This document shows positions 2,690-55,517 of a stretch of DNA of 64,000 bases, piece after piece. The stretch comes from Selenobaculum gibii (GTDB lineage: Bacteria > Bacillota > Negativicutes > ICN-92133), in NCBI RefSeq assembly GCF_030273445.1, contig NZ_CP120678.1:149501-213500 (forward strand), given 5' to 3'. Below the pieces are notes generated by a model. The model worked only from the letters and a program-made list of their open reading frames with translations, was not told the origin of the DNA and ran no database searches. The position numbers and the translations under genes were made by a program. Within the stretch, counting starts at the first letter, position 1. Each line of letters opens with the position of its first letter.

Positions 2690-2900
2690 TATCGCTCGTA
2701 GGTCAACGGTAATTGTTAAGCAGGCAGTTCTCCTGGCTCTAGTTCATCGCTTATCCAAGCCTTCCCAAAGCATACGCTTCAGTGACATCATATGGATTTG
2801 CTCCCTATTACAGTGGCGGGACCGCATCGGTATTGCACCGATTTCCCTATTAAGCCCTAAACGGGCACCTTGCTCCTAAATATTCGATTGCTAAATACAA
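2690..2900 (-). promoter_or_regulatory. Cobalamin (adenosylcobalamin-class) riboswitch
   Basis: Read on the minus strand, the leader contains the B12-box core gcggtcccgccactgta (near 2803-2822), the upstream GGTGCC and GGGAAxCGGTGC elements, and the later GGGAAGGC and GCCAGGAGA elements. These occur in the order known for cobalamin riboswitches. It is followed by the intrinsic terminator at 2610-2647 and then the TonB receptor. Cobalamin binding would therefore be expected to reduce transcription of the receptor and the polyferredoxin-like gene behind it. Confidence 0.93.
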
Positions 2901-26260: not shown

Positions 26261-28096
26261 ATGGAAGTTGGTAAAGACCTAAATATCGAAAGCCTTCAAG
26301 ATAAAGAAACCTATGACGAAAAGAATAATAGCAGTGGCTTTAATTTTAGCGTAGAGGTATCACAGCCAAAAGGAAAGCCAGCTACCTATGAAAATGCAGG
26401 AATCACAGGCGGTAAAAATAAAGGCAAGACAAACTCCACCTACGAAAGCGTAACCGACCAAGCCGGCATCTACGCAGGTAAAGGTGGCTTCGATATTGAA
26501 GTTGGCAAAAATACTGACTTAAAAGGTGCAGTCATTGCAAGTGAAGCGGATGCGAGTAAAAATAAACTTAGCACGGATACGCTGACTTATTCTGATATAG
26601 AAAATAAGGCGGAATATAGTTCAAGTAGTAGTGGATTTAACTTTGATTCAAAAGGTGAAATTCCAATCACCCCTAGCCAAGGAATGCCTGCAAATGGAGA
26701 AGCAGAATCAACAACAAAATCTGCAATAGCCGAAGGAACAATCGAAATACGAAGCAACGAAAATCAAAATATTAGTGATTTAAGCAGAAATACACAAGAA
26801 GCACTTAATAAACTAGAAAAAATCTTTGACGCAAAAACAGTAAAAGAACAGCAAGAACTAGCAGATTTATTTGGTGAAGTCGCATTTAAAGCAGTAGGAG
26901 ATATCGCAGATAGAAATTGGAAAAATGCAAAAACACCAGAAGAAAAAGCGAAATGGGCAGAAGGCGGGGAATACAAAATCCTCCTACATACACTTGTAGG
27001 AAGAATGATGTCTGAATTTGCTGGGAATGGATTTAAGTCTGGAGCAATAAGTGCAGGAATAAGCCAAGCATTGCAAAACCAACTATCTAAAATAGAAGAT
27101 AAAGGTCTTAGGCTAATTGCAGGAGGTCTAGTCGCAGGAACGGTCAATAAGGTACTAGGATTAAAACCGGAAGTTGGGTCAAGTATAGCGATAAGTGGCA
27201 TAAAAAATAATGATTATTGCCATAGACCAACAACAGAAGGGTCATATATATTTGTAGAAGGACAAGGATATTTTATAATAGAAAATGGTATAGATGTATA
27301 TATGCAAGGGGATGTTCCGCCAGCAGGAGCAGTTGTTTGGTATCAAGACTATGACAATCAAGACTATGGAAATGAGTTTATAAAAGGTGATGGAGGAATA
27401 AATCTTAGCGACACATATTTTCAATGGGAAGAAAGAACAATAATTGCCGGAGCAGGAATGGCACAACAATATGTAAAAATACATGTTGCTGTAGATGATA
27501 ACGAAAATGATATTTCGGTAAATGGTATGCCACTAATAAGTCCAGATGATTATGGGGAATATCAAAGAGCTTTAGATTTATACAATTACTATGGTGGAAC
27601 AAGTATGGATGCTAAGGCAGGTATGATACTTCTTGAGGGCGGTGCTAGTTTAACTGGAAATGGAACAAAAGTAATTGATGGAATGAGAATTATTGAGGGA
27701 AAAGTAGGAGGAAAAATACCCTTAGATGATTTCATAAAAATTAGAAGTCAATCAATTCATAATGGAGAGGCTGAATTAATGACTCTTGGTAAGTATACAA
27801 ATGGAACAGATTCATATATATCGGTAGCAGGAGAAAATTCAACATATTTTGATTTGGGAACTAAATGGGAAAACGTAAGAAATAGATATAACCTAACGAA
27901 TAATGAAATGTTTGAATATTTTAATAAGCCTGCACTTGATGACGCAATTAGTAATGGTAAGGTAATTCAATTTTCTCATAATCCAGAATTACCAGCATAT
28001 GAGAATAGTTTCTTGGCACAAGAGTGGAAATATTTAAAAGATAAATATGGTTATCAATCTTTAAAAAAAGAAGGAGATGTGTGGATTGCAAGATAA
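26261..28096 (+). CDS. Orphan CdiA C-terminal cassette with intact toxin tail, cassette 4
   Basis: An open frame of 611 codons can start at ATG 26261, but the same frame extends back to about 26081 without a start or ribosome site. This is a 5'-truncated tpsA copy. It covers the last haemagglutinin repeats (MEVGKDLNIESLQDKETYDE, AEGTIEIRS), the pretoxin region (EYKILLHTLVGRMMSEFAGN) and a KNND border near residue 314. A new tail then diverges completely from the main TpsA. It ends with ELMTLGKYTNGTDSYISVAG, FDLGTKWENV, FNKPALDDAI and IQFSHNPELPAYENSF, a C-terminal module I associate with polymorphic toxins but cannot assign an activity. It is probably silent unless recombined onto full-length tpsA. 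Confidence 0.8.
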   Translation: MEVGKDLNIESLQDKETYDEKNNSSGFNFSVEVSQPKGKPATYENAGITGGKNKGKTNSTYESVTDQAGIYAGKGGFDIEVGKNTDLKGAVIASEADASKNKLSTDTLTYSDIENKAEYSSSSSGFNFDSKGEIPITPSQGMPANGEAESTTKSAIAEGTIEIRSNENQNISDLSRNTQEALNKLEKIFDAKTVKEQQELADLFGEVAFKAVGDIADRNWKNAKTPEEKAKWAEGGEYKILLHTLVGRMMSEFAGNGFKSGAISAGISQALQNQLSKIEDKGLRLIAGGLVAGTVNKVLGLKPEVGSSIAISGIKNNDYCHRPTTEGSYIFVEGQGYFIIENGIDVYMQGDVPPAGAVVWYQDYDNQDYGNEFIKGDGGINLSDTYFQWEERTIIAGAGMAQQYVKIHVAVDDNENDISVNGMPLISPDDYGEYQRALDLYNYYGGTSMDAKAGMILLEGGASLTGNGTKVIDGMRIIEGKVGGKIPLDDFIKIRSQSIHNGEAELMTLGKYTNGTDSYISVAGENSTYFDLGTKWENVRNRYNLTNNEMFEYFNKPALDDAISNGKVIQFSHNPELPAYENSFLAQEWKYLKDKYGYQSLKKEGDVWIAR

Positions 28097-28427
28097 AAAA
28101 AGTATAATGATTGCAGATTCTATAATGAATATATTGAAAAACTATTTCAGAGAGAAAATTGATGGTTTTGTGATTTCTGATGCAACGGATATTCCGTATA
28201 ACATGTTTAGCATAGAATTTAGATTATATAATTATTTTCCGATTATATTAAACTATGATAGAGGAAGTTTTGGTTGTGCAATTTCTTATGGAGAGCAAGG
28301 GATTGCTTTAGAAAATAGCCAAAGGTGGTATGATGAAGCTGATATGAATGTATTTGTTAAGGAATTAGATGAACAAATAAAATTAAGAATTCCAGATAAA
28401 TTTTTGGATTATTATGGATGGAAATAG
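28086..28427 (+). CDS. Probable orphan immunity protein, cassette 4
   Basis: The start is most likely TTG at 28086, 9 bp after AAGGAG (28071-28076). ATG 28077 touches the ribosome site, and ATG 28107 has none. The gene overlaps the last codons of the toxin frame, as in the main toxin/immunity pair. The product of about 113 residues is cytoplasmic and mixed alpha/beta (MIADSIMNILKNYFREKIDG ... QRWYDEADMNVFVKELDEQI). I recognise no family; the call rests on overlap and position. A degenerate REP-like motif and the shared terminator follow. Confidence 0.7.
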   Translation: MQDKKSIMIADSIMNILKNYFREKIDGFVISDATDIPYNMFSIEFRLYNYFPIILNYDRGSFGCAISYGEQGIALENSQRWYDEADMNVFVKELDEQIKLRIPDKFLDYYGWK

Positions 28428-28640: not shown

Positions 28641-28950
28641 TCAAGCTACTGAGTTTGATAAGATAAATTTTTCGAAATCATTTGGAGATATCCAACCTAT
28701 ACCACTATGAGAACGAACAGAATTATAGTACGTTTCAATATATCGAAAAATAGCTGTCTGCTCAGCTTGACGAGTAGAAAAACGCTGCAAATAAACAAAT
28801 TCACATTTTAAGCAATTAAAGAAATTCTCAGCAACAGCATTATTATAAGGATTACCACGCCTAGACATGCTTTGTTGAATATGATGATGCTTTAAAAGGT
28901 CTCTATAAGCATAACAAGCATACTTTTGTGTCCACCAAATCGAGAAAGGG
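28641..28950 (-). pseudogene. IS3-family transposase OrfB, C-terminal fragment
   Basis: The minus-strand frame encodes YACYAYRDLLKHHHIQQSMS, RRGNPYNNAVAENFFNCLKC and EFVYLQRFSTRQAEQTAIFR, ending with YYNSVRSHSGIGWISPNDFE. This is the last third of an IS3-type DDE integrase with its final catalytic Glu (AENFF). The motif expected just upstream (HSDRGxQYA) is garbled to SIWWTQKYA, showing frame damage. The rest of the IS is absent and is replaced by RAYT-derived sequence. It is non-functional. Confidence 0.88.
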
Positions 28951-28959
28951 CGCACAATT

Positions 28960-29028
28960 ATACCACTAAGAAAATTAGCAGAAATAACAGGTATTAATAA
29001 AGATAAAATAAATATATTAACAAAATAA
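28960..29028 (+). pseudogene. RAYT C-terminal remnant
   Basis: The frame IPLRKLAEITGINKDKINIL-TK-stop shares 36 identical bases with the RAYT gene (24195-24230). It preserves the normal RAYT C-terminus that the other copy has lost. The inverted REP-like motif follows 2 bp later. Confidence 0.8.
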
Positions 29029-29030
29029 TT

Positions 29031-29051
29031 AGACAAAAAGAACCGTAACCT
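29031..29051 (-). repeat. Inverted REP-like motif (right end of a RAYT element)
   Basis: agacaaaaagaaccgtaacc is the reverse complement of the left-end motif with one change. It marks the right border of the toxin-cassette array. Confidence 0.75.
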
Positions 29052-32587: not shown

Positions 32588-32638
32588 GTATTCTTTAAAA
32601 GTGCATTATAATAAAATATTTTTTAAAACATAAATAAA

Positions 32639-32689
32639 ACAGCTAGAGGACTAAAACATCACTACTTTCGATGTTTGCCCTCTAGCTGT
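32639..32689 (-). terminator. Terminator of the candidate RNA gene
   Basis: On the minus strand acagctagagg pairs with cctctagctgt, with an inner stem aaacatc/gatgttt. A T-rich tract (ttttatttatgtttt) follows. Confidence 0.8.
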
Positions 32690-33209
32690 ACCTATAGTTT
32701 GACATTGGGTTACTATACCTCATTCATTATTTTGTTGTCCGATATTCACTTGTCTGGACTCCTTTTCATCAGAGACCTCATACTGTTTATTTCTATAGCT
32801 AGCCTAACTAAAAAATATTATTTACAGGCGCGATCGCACGGCAGATGAGCCATTGTCGCTAACTAAACTATATAGAGAAACATACAAGTAAAATCTAAAT
32901 GGGTAGCCATTCATGTCATGACATTCAGAACAGGAATCTTTGTTGCGCATTGTTGCAATCAATGCGTTCTTCTAGGGGTAAACGGATTCACCTTACACGA
33001 ATACTTACCGTCCTCTTCTGTGCCGTATCAGTATCTTCTCTCACCAAGAGTATACATCCGTCGGGATTGCATCTCTACATAGGTAACGAGTAAGATCTTT
33101 CAAACAATTTATTTGCACCGTGACGTTAAGCTTATGTTGGGATGACTTGTTCGGTCATGTCTTCGATAAACCTCACTTCCCTTCTGTATGAAGATTTCCT
33201 ATTCCTTAT
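32639..33209 (-). ncRNA. Candidate large structured non-coding RNA (~570 nt), unassigned
   Basis: This minus-strand unit is defined by a consensus promoter (33216-33244) and an intrinsic terminator (32639-32689). No credible gene lies between them: the 64-codon frame at 32899-33093 has no ribosome site and no protein-like pattern. The sequence is visibly richer in G+C and in mixed composition than the surrounding intergenic DNA. It contains many local inverted repeats, e.g. ttgttgcgcattgttgcaatcaa near 32940 and cgcgatcgcacggcagatgagc near 32828. It is not RNase P, tmRNA, SRP or 6S by the signatures I know. The length fits the large ornate classes such as ROOL or OLE, but I cannot confirm membership. 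Confidence 0.6.
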
Positions 33210-33215
33210 GGCTTT

Positions 33216-33244
33216 ATTATAGCATAACCAAAAATTTATTTCAA
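33216..33244 (-). promoter_or_regulatory. Consensus promoter of the candidate RNA gene
   Basis: On the minus strand TTGAAA (33239-33244) is followed by exactly 17 bp and then TATAAT (33216-33221). This is among the best sigma-70/sigma-A matches in the window. Confidence 0.8.
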
Positions 33245-33425
33245 TATTCAGATTATTTAAAATTTATAAATATTTTCGCTGATTTTCGATTGAATTTGCT
33301 AATTTAATTGGAGAAGGAAGAAGAGGTACTTTCTAAAATTATTTTTATATTTTAGGGCTAGGATACTTAGGTTAGGGGACAAATTACATCTTGAAACATA
33401 TTATGTAATATAGGAGGTGAACGAT

Positions 33426-35951: not shown

Positions 35952-36213
35952 CATGATAAAAAAATAAAACAGTCATTTTATTGACTATTTGTAAATGCGA
36001 TGATGGGGAAGCGATTTAGCGATTACTTTTCAGAGAACCGGTGTTTGGTGAAAATCGGTAAGTGGTGTAGATTGTTCCGCCCCAGAGTATCTAATGATGA
36101 ATTAAGACGGGTTTCGCCCGATATAGCGGACTAGAGGAAGCATATTATGCTAACTTGGGTGGTACCGCGGAATATTAAAGTTTCGCCCCAATTGATTTGG
36201 GGCGAAACTTTTT
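35952..36213 (+). promoter_or_regulatory. T-box leader controlling serA
   Basis: The leader has the conserved T-box core aacttgggtggtaccgcgg (36151-36169). An antiterminator and terminator follow, with the stem gtttcgccccaattgatttggggcgaaac and a T-run ending near 36213. Stem-I elements AGAGAACCGG and GGTGAAAATCGG are also visible. The likely specifier is UCC within gttccgcccc near 36077, a serine codon followed by a purine, in keeping with the serA target. Uncharged tRNA-Ser would stabilise the antiterminator and switch serA on. Confidence 0.93.
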
Positions 36214-36296
36214 TGTATATATGCCAGATTCCGACTGTGCCAGCAAAGGAATCTATGGAATTTGATTTTAAGATAAGAAAAGGAGAGTTTTGTAAC

Positions 36297-37883
36297 ATGA
36301 TGAAAGTTTTAGTTGCCGATGGAGTTTCTCAAAAAGGGATAGACATTTTAAGTAAAGAGTTTGAAGTTGTAGAAAAACCAAAATTGACTGCGGAAGAATT
36401 ACTGGAAATGATTCCTGAATTTGATGCGTTAATCGTGCGTAGCGCATCTAAAGTAACAAAAGAAGTATTTGCAGCAGCAAAGAATCTTAAAGTTGTTGGT
36501 CGTGCTGGTGTTGGTGTAGATAACATTAACATCGAGGCTGCTACAGCGAAAGGTGTTATTGTTCTCAATGCGCCAGAAGGTAATACAATTGCAGCTACAG
36601 AACATACGATGGCAATGATGCTTTCAATGGCGAGAAATATTCCAATTGCCAATGAAACAACACAAAAAGGTGAATGGAATCGTAAAAAATATGTCGGTGT
36701 TGAACTTCGTGGAAAAACATTAGGTGTGATTGGTTTAGGCCGTATCGGTAGCGGTGTTGCAAAACGCGCCTTGGCTTTTGATATGGATGTTATTGGTTAC
36801 GATCCATATGTTAATGAAGAAAGAGCGCAAAACATGGGCATTGAACTCGGTACATTAGATGATATCTATACAAAAGCAGATTTCATTACAGTACATATGC
36901 CGCTTACAGCACAAACAAAGCATATGATAGGTAAAGAAACTTTTGCAAAAATGAAAAAAGGCGTTCGTTTAGTAAATTGTGCACGTGGTGGAATCATTGA
37001 AGAAGCTGCATTAGCTGAAGCTGTAAAAGACGGTATTGTAGCTGGTGCCGCAATTGACGTTTTTGAGAGTGAACCTATGGGCGAAAATCATCCATTACAA
37101 GGGCTAGAAAAAGTTGTACTTACACCTCACCTTGGTGCATCTACGGTAGAAGCGCAAATCGGGGTTGCAGTTGACGTTGCTTATGGGGTAGCAGCAGCAC
37201 TTCGCGGCGAACCTGTTTCAACTGCGGTAAATATGGCACCTGTTTCGGCTCAAGTAATGAAAACAATCAGACCTTACTTTGACTTGGCAGAACGTATGGG
37301 ATGTACAGTTCGTTCTTTAGCAGAAGGTGCAATTTCTGAAGTAGAAGTAGAATACAATGGTGAAATTACAAAAGTAGATACAAAAATGATTACAACTGCA
37401 GTTGTTAAAGGAATGTTAAACCCAATATTGCAGGATGCAGTAAACTATGTAAATGCGCCTGGTATTGCGAAAGAGCGCAATATTAAAGTGAAATCCGTTA
37501 AGAATGCAGAGGCAGATAATTTTGCAAATCTAATTACGGTACGTGTAAAAGCTGCGAAAAATGCGGTGGAAGTACAAGGGACATTATTCGGTGAAGAGGC
37601 TCGCATTGTTACAATTAATAAACATCGTGTAGATGTTGATCCCCATGCGAGAATCTTAATTTGCCCTCATATCAATTGCCCAGGTGTTATTGGTAAAGTT
37701 GGTTCTATTATGGGTGCTGCGGGTATTAATATTTCTGGTATGCAAGTGGGTAAAACAGATATTAAAGGAACAAATATTATGGTACTTACTATTGATAATG
37801 AAATTTCAGCGGATGTTCTTGCTGAGGTTGTTAGCGTACAAGGAATTTTTGATGCAAAATTAGTCAACTTTGACGTAGTTTGA
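36297..37883 (+). CDS. serA: D-3-phosphoglycerate dehydrogenase
   Basis: The start at 36297 (MMKVLVADGVSQKGIDIL) follows AGGAG; an open frame reaching back to 36147 merely crosses the T-box. The 528-residue enzyme catalyses the first step of serine synthesis. It has the N-terminal substrate half, the NAD-binding motif GLGRIGSGVAKRA (near 147-159), the catalytic His segment LTPHLGASTVEAQ (near 279-291), an intervening ASB domain, and a C-terminal ACT domain (ICPHINCPGVIGKVGSIMGA, about 455-528). This is the long form with allosteric feedback by serine. Expression is set by the T-box upstream. Confidence 0.97.
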   Translation: MMKVLVADGVSQKGIDILSKEFEVVEKPKLTAEELLEMIPEFDALIVRSASKVTKEVFAAAKNLKVVGRAGVGVDNINIEAATAKGVIVLNAPEGNTIAATEHTMAMMLSMARNIPIANETTQKGEWNRKKYVGVELRGKTLGVIGLGRIGSGVAKRALAFDMDVIGYDPYVNEERAQNMGIELGTLDDIYTKADFITVHMPLTAQTKHMIGKETFAKMKKGVRLVNCARGGIIEEAALAEAVKDGIVAGAAIDVFESEPMGENHPLQGLEKVVLTPHLGASTVEAQIGVAVDVAYGVAAALRGEPVSTAVNMAPVSAQVMKTIRPYFDLAERMGCTVRSLAEGAISEVEVEYNGEITKVDTKMITTAVVKGMLNPILQDAVNYVNAPGIAKERNIKVKSVKNAEADNFANLITVRVKAAKNAVEVQGTLFGEEARIVTINKHRVDVDPHARILICPHINCPGVIGKVGSIMGAAGINISGMQVGKTDIKGTNIMVLTIDNEISADVLAEVVSVQGIFDAKLVNFDVV

Positions 37884-55357: not shown

Positions 55358-55517
55358 GCTCTTATCAAGAGAGGTCGAGGGACTGGCCCGATGAAACCCG
55401 GCAACCGGCAGAAATGCAGTGGTGCCAAATCCAGCAGGAGTATATTTCCTGGAGATGAGAGAAAAGCAGTGTATAAATGATAGGCTCTTTTCCTCACGGA
55501 AAAGAGCTTTTTTATTT
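55358..55517 (+). promoter_or_regulatory. SAM-I riboswitch (S-box)
   Basis: The leader carries the S-box core: cttatcaagagaggtcgagg, then gactggcccgatgaaacccg and gcaaccggcag, then ggtgccaaatcc. It ends in the terminator gctcttttcctcacggaaaagagc plus T-run (about 55483-55515). SAM binding should stop transcription before metQ, coupling methionine import to the SAM level. Confidence 0.95.

Follow-up and report, generated by a model that had tools for sequence, protein, structure and literature searches.

Only a handful of classes of large structured RNA are known from bacteria, and most of them are without a known role. The gene for OLE (Ornate Large Extremophilic) RNA is accompanied by oapA, ROOL is frequent on phages and plasmids, and GOLLD is longer and often carries a tRNA. 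A viral point of reference is the kissing loop of the HIV-1 DIS, which presents a six-base palindrome within a nine-base loop. A cryo-EM study describes ROOL as a homo-oligomer with kissing loops and argues that OLE and GOLLD have symmetric kissing loops, since loops change in sequence and yet remain palindromic; the L9.3 loop of OLE, for example, switches between GGCC, GAUC and AGCU (PMC12286853). A further large orphan RNA, the smtA motif (Soda Lake RNA), exceeds 350 nt and is reported only in Thioalkalivibrio, with its role unknown (PMC11109978).

Here we describe an RNA gene within a 64,000-nucleotide stretch of the Selenobaculum gibii genome (hereafter, the window), which we consider, with a probability of about 0.88, to belong to a new structured RNA family that would add a Negativicutes member to this short list. 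The family resembles OLE as a large bacterial non-coding RNA of similar length with a self-complementary loop that switches palindromes, ROOL as a stand-alone large non-coding RNA of similar length, and GOLLD as a large non-coding RNA in which symmetric kissing loops have been argued (PMC12286853). However, the Rfam models of all three give no match to the window RNA, phage and plasmid searches were empty for its family, in contrast to ROOL, and the window as a whole, unlike many GOLLD loci, holds no tRNA. To our knowledge, no oapA-like partner gene lies beside the window RNA. The likeness to the HIV-1 DIS, seen in the UA-CUUAAG-A loop of G276 and others, is one of architecture only, the origins being unrelated, and the smtA motif, compared by description only, shares the condition of a large orphan RNA of narrow taxonomic range.

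Transcription Signals and Coding Content of the Locus

The gene lies on the minus strand, from 33244 to 32639, the strand having been left unstated in the initial annotation of this region. Its promoter consists of TTGAAA (33244-33239), a spacer of 17 nt and TATAAT (33221-33216), with TG preceding the -10 box; this near-consensus sigma-A promoter matches at 11 of 12 positions and is the best of the 25 such sites that a 3.8-kb region around it contains. Together with its upstream region it forms AAATAATCTGAATATTGAAATAAATTTTTGGTTATGCTATAAT (33216-33258, minus strand), which is conserved in G135, G136 and G146 and in which the match is of the sigma-70 type. The RNA gene itself, about 575 nt long, occupies 32635-33212 on the same strand and has relatives of the same plan in 11 genomes; its start is approximate, set some 9 nt downstream of the first base of the -10 box. 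An intrinsic terminator closes it at 32635-32689 (minus strand), with a long stem at about 32639-32689 (-29.1 kcal/mol, z -8.5) and a U tract. The stem is followed by UUUUA, and a pattern scan did not pick out this terminator. The conserved promoter and the terminator suggest that the window RNA is transcribed from the minus strand. As a separate observation, a near-palindrome, AATAATCTGAATATT, overlaps the -35 box at 33237-33258 (minus strand) and has a perfect version, AATAATCTGATTATT, in G135; it is like a CodY box but for three mismatches, and is a possible operator.

The interval holds no open reading frame of at least 50 aa on the minus strand, and the plus-strand frames of 54-64 aa inside it are without a Pfam match. 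Conserved protein coding, the finding that the initial annotation had named as speaking against an RNA gene, was looked for in the family members, and no frame with a ribosome-binding site common to them was found on either strand. GC content is 0.38-0.41 at 32700-33149 vs 0.21-0.32 outside, and the whole transcript folds at -156 kcal/mol, whereas dinucleotide shuffles average -134.9 (sd 6.3) and none of 100 equalled it (z = -3.4). The promoter of the form TTGAAA-17-TATAAT, the strong terminator, the roughly 570 nt devoid of coding and the unusual composition that had been noticed on first reading are thus all borne out. One flank carries a gene of the isochorismatase fold, convergent with the RNA gene, and an Lrp/AsnC regulator, and the other a 76-codon frame and a glucosaminidase gene; no neighbour of the window RNA bears on its function.

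Comparison With Known RNA Classes

No Rfam 15 family was recovered at the window RNA, either at gathering thresholds or at E values up to 10, permissive thresholds giving chance matches only, and searches of five further loci (L002, L065, L066, L089 and L090) at E up to 5 or 2 returned no match to ROOL, OLE or GOLLD. Membership in any of these three classes, for which the covariance models gave no match in the window at E up to 10, is therefore unsupported. The initial annotation had likened the RNA to ROOL or OLE; what survives of this is a loose analogy in size and possibly in self-association. 6S RNA (RF00013) sits elsewhere in all eight genomes tested, including that of the window, and RNase P RNA (RF00010) has its own gene in the latter at C1:810302-810656. 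BLASTn against phage and plasmid records gave no match to the window RNA, promoter and 3'-motif patterns were absent from viral contigs, and of nine viral contigs with the bare tail pattern none matches the model. Across the whole window, Rfam 15 recognised only cobalamin, T-box and SAM elements, all away from the RNA: a cobalamin riboswitch at 2706-2888 (minus strand), a T-box leader at 35991-36193 (plus strand), just 5' of the reading frame 36147-37883, and a SAM riboswitch at 55359-55461 (plus strand).

A survey that includes Negativicutes motifs names the cis elements gltD, ldh2, ilvD and potE and not the window RNA (PMC8632094), and such surveys list over a thousand candidates in supplements that are not covered here (PMC11109978). 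An unnamed earlier sighting among survey candidates is possible; relative to Rfam and to the literature searched, the family is new.

Relatives in the Negativicutes

Among about 380 genomes of Negativicutes, relatives were found in 11 genomes (ten lineages) beyond the window, giving 12 genomes (11 lineages) in total; the source genome is the only one of its order in this sample. BLASTn against the 380 genomes of the class returned a single match, in G135 (60 nt, 82% identical, E 1.5e-9 in the whole genome), which covers the promoter and the first transcribed bases and is followed by about 560 gene-free nt with a terminator at their end. The G135 sequence, searched within its family, led to G136 (stretches of 84% and 75% identity) and to G145/G146. 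A sequence-only model built from four promoters gave 46-53 bits to the five genomes then known and no more than 28 to any other, and two of its weaker matches, G277 and G276, are members with the 3' hairpin and the tail of the family. G141 and G144 were added by a covariance model of the 3' 99 nt, and a refined model with looser filters added G142, G143, whose copy is interrupted by a contig end, and G098.

A promoter pattern allowing 3 mismatches found only the window and G135 in the 380 genomes, and no member outside Negativicutes appeared in an even sample of the phylum. The distribution is patchy, in about eleven lineages, and since the class-wide scans had strict filters, the true range within Negativicutes probably exceeds 12 genomes. 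Other matches to the promoter model or in BLAST (L068-L076, L087, L091, L095, L099, L106 and others) were rejected as coding, as lying upstream of an activase-like gene or as other short elements.

Models R1 to R3 include the window, so that its scores under them are not independent and are not used as evidence of its membership. When the window was left out of the profile of the 3' domain, the top match in its 64 kb still fell at 32808-32743 and on the expected strand, with E 0.014 against 1.5 for the runner-up, and this leave-one-out match recovers both the 3' domain and the tail. At the other end, the conserved promoter is matched by that of G135 (BLASTn, E 1.5e-9). The ten other lineages have an H with an outer stem and a palindromic loop, which the window lacks; as the window passes the remaining tests, we treat the palindromic H as typical of the family and not as defining it. 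Because both ends of the unit are matched, in the right order and on the right strand, the window copy is very likely a divergent member.

Family Plan and Covariation of Hairpin H

All members follow a common plan, in which a promoter precedes a non-coding RNA of 461-705 nt with a 5' GAARGGAnGUG motif, hairpin H, a AGACAAAnGAAUAAAGAGG-like tail and a terminator. From 5' to 3', the promoter is followed by a variable 5' part, GAARGGAnGUG, a weakly conserved middle region with a palindrome, site D, H, the tail and the terminator, and between the last two an AUG or UUG often opens 4-7 codons. In the window copy, the parts are laid out along the minus strand: the 5' motif GAAGGGAAGTGAGG, read in members as well, at 33171-33184; a middle palindrome, ATGTCATGACAT, at 32913-32924, perhaps the counterpart of ATGTATTGCAATACAT in G276, a tentative pairing; site D, GGCTAGCT, self-complementary with G-U pairs, at 32797-32804; the position of H at 32752-32783, with only a short stem (GGUCUC/GAGUCC) and a non-palindromic loop; the conserved tail AGACAAGTGAATA at 32743-32755, placed by the leave-one-out match and by alignment; and a speculative micro-ORF, ATG TCA AAC TAT AGG TAC AGC TAG, at 32682-32705, with similar ones in most members.

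Hairpin H covaries strongly. In a 12-row alignment (11 distinct rows), 87% of cells are paired and 7 of 10 pairs have changed on both sides, counts that are favoured by the fitting of this alignment to the structure. The covariation score is 0.611 vs 0.282 (sd 0.045) in column shuffles, and shifting the partner by 1-3 columns lowers it to 0.03-0.15 (maximum 0.147). The unaltered hairpin sequences of ten lineages do fold into the proposed form. Outside the 3' domain, RNAalifold found no stable consensus structure in subset alignments, and full-length alignments gave no global one. With relatives found across Negativicutes, a family hairpin that covaries strongly and no Rfam family to claim them, the proposal of an unassigned large structured RNA gene in the initial annotation is supported.

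Self-Complementary Loops and Predicted Self-Association

Six bases of the H loop form a palindrome, and its sequence depends on the lineage: CUUAAG in five, CUCGAG in G098 and UCGCGA in four lineages of g50. Such a palindrome occurs in about one in ten 9-mers drawn from these RNAs, a background that puts the chance of three independent palindromic states at about one in a thousand. The centre of site D lies 15-19 nt 5' of H, and the site is likewise self-complementary over at least 8 nt (G-U allowed) in 10 of 10 complete members, against a background of 27% per site, although the members are related and the count thus overstates its strength. Its sequences differ (TTAGCTAG, TCAGCTGG, TAGATCTA, GTTAGCTGAC, CTTAGCTAGG, TAGCTGGCTA, ATAGTCGACTAT and GGCTAGCT), and middle palindromes of up to 12-16 nt are present in G276, G277, G146, G142, G144 and the window. 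Counted regardless of position, palindromes per RNA are not clearly above shuffles; the argument made here uses their position-specific persistence only.

Palindromes that change and yet persist point to pairing between two copies, because adjacent bases cannot pair within one molecule. On this pattern, self-association of the family RNA is plausible, and the RNA may homodimerise, which is surer for the family than for the window copy. That the family forms homo-oligomers through two or three self-complementary loops, and does so independently of OLE, ROOL and GOLLD, is a tentative proposal to which we give somewhat less than even odds. The predicted self-pairing loops could be broken and restored by mutation, and would thereby offer a test of homo-oligomers as a general theme of large bacterial RNAs. 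In the g50 members G141 and G142 (L117, L119), the 5' part holds another long palindrome, ATATTGATCAATAT.

Proposed Mode of Action and Alternatives

We propose that the gene is a unit of its own, with a housekeeping-type promoter at one end and a terminator at the other, and yields a non-coding structured RNA about 575 nt long. This RNA would most likely act in trans as a folded molecule, because the neighbouring genes differ between lineages. The self-complementary loops would let two or more copies pair into a homodimer or a larger RNA complex, and the purine-rich conserved tail would be the part most likely to touch a further partner, for example the ribosome.

An ordinary trans-acting antisense sRNA, with loops that pair with mRNAs and palindromes that are incidental, would equally have its own promoter and terminator, a stand-alone gene and exposed loops. 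We regard this as unlikely: the RNA is far longer than usual sRNAs, and loops that vary by lineage yet stay self-complementary are not predicted by target pairing.

The tail invites a second alternative, in which a Shine-Dalgarno-like sequence and an AUG or UUG serve a micro-ORF of about 4-7 codons, so that the RNA would be translated or have a dual function, as a minigene with which ribosomes engage or the source of a tiny peptide. Most members do have a tail of GAGGGA or GAGGTA and, after 4-10 nt, an ATG or TTG whose frame stops within 4-7 codons, as in TTG AGT TAT TGC TGA (G142, G143) and TTG AAT TAT TGT TGA (G141). However, the peptides are not conserved between genera and tiny frames are frequent by chance; in G098 the frame enters the terminator, the window copy has its Shine-Dalgarno-like part out of position, and 450 nt of upstream structured RNA would be left unexplained. 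Translation as the role of this RNA therefore seems quite improbable to us.

Some promoter-model matches in other genera lie opposite small hydrophobic frames, which would suggest a type I toxin-antitoxin RNA or the remnant of a protein gene, but this is highly improbable for the family: its members share no sense or antisense frame with a ribosome-binding site, the frames in the window interval have no Pfam match, and a stem covaries. Just as remote is a cis-acting leader or 3' element of an adjacent gene: the interval is intergenic, but the window RNA is convergent with the isochorismatase gene and closed by its own terminator, and the differing neighbourhoods (dhaL adjoins five members and a radical-SAM gene three, Lrp being found in the window) make a cis role unlikely.

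Other Elements at Promoter Matches and in the Window

In L071 (G122), L070 (G129) and L075 (G134), a similar promoter drives a short element at the promoter match, present in G122 as two tandem copies 338 nt apart. On the strand opposite this element, a ribosome-binding site accompanies a tiny hydrophobic frame, MSEIGAILFLIVATGYILAI, and the arrangement looks like a type I toxin-antitoxin system. In L091 (G354), and perhaps L106 (G359), long inverted ends surround an opposite-strand frame like MTTYEKLSLLIQFSMLIVEVLRCF downstream of the promoter match; it has a strong ribosome-binding site and resembles putative holin-like type I toxins. Elsewhere in the window, the plus strand at 26261-28427 encodes the C-terminal part of a haemagglutinin-repeat protein (PF13332) followed by a small frame of 116 aa, the arrangement of contact-dependent toxins, in which the toxin tip precedes an immunity gene, and a transposase fragment with an integrase core (rve_2/rve_3) adjoins the haemagglutinin gene at 28641-29036 on the minus strand.
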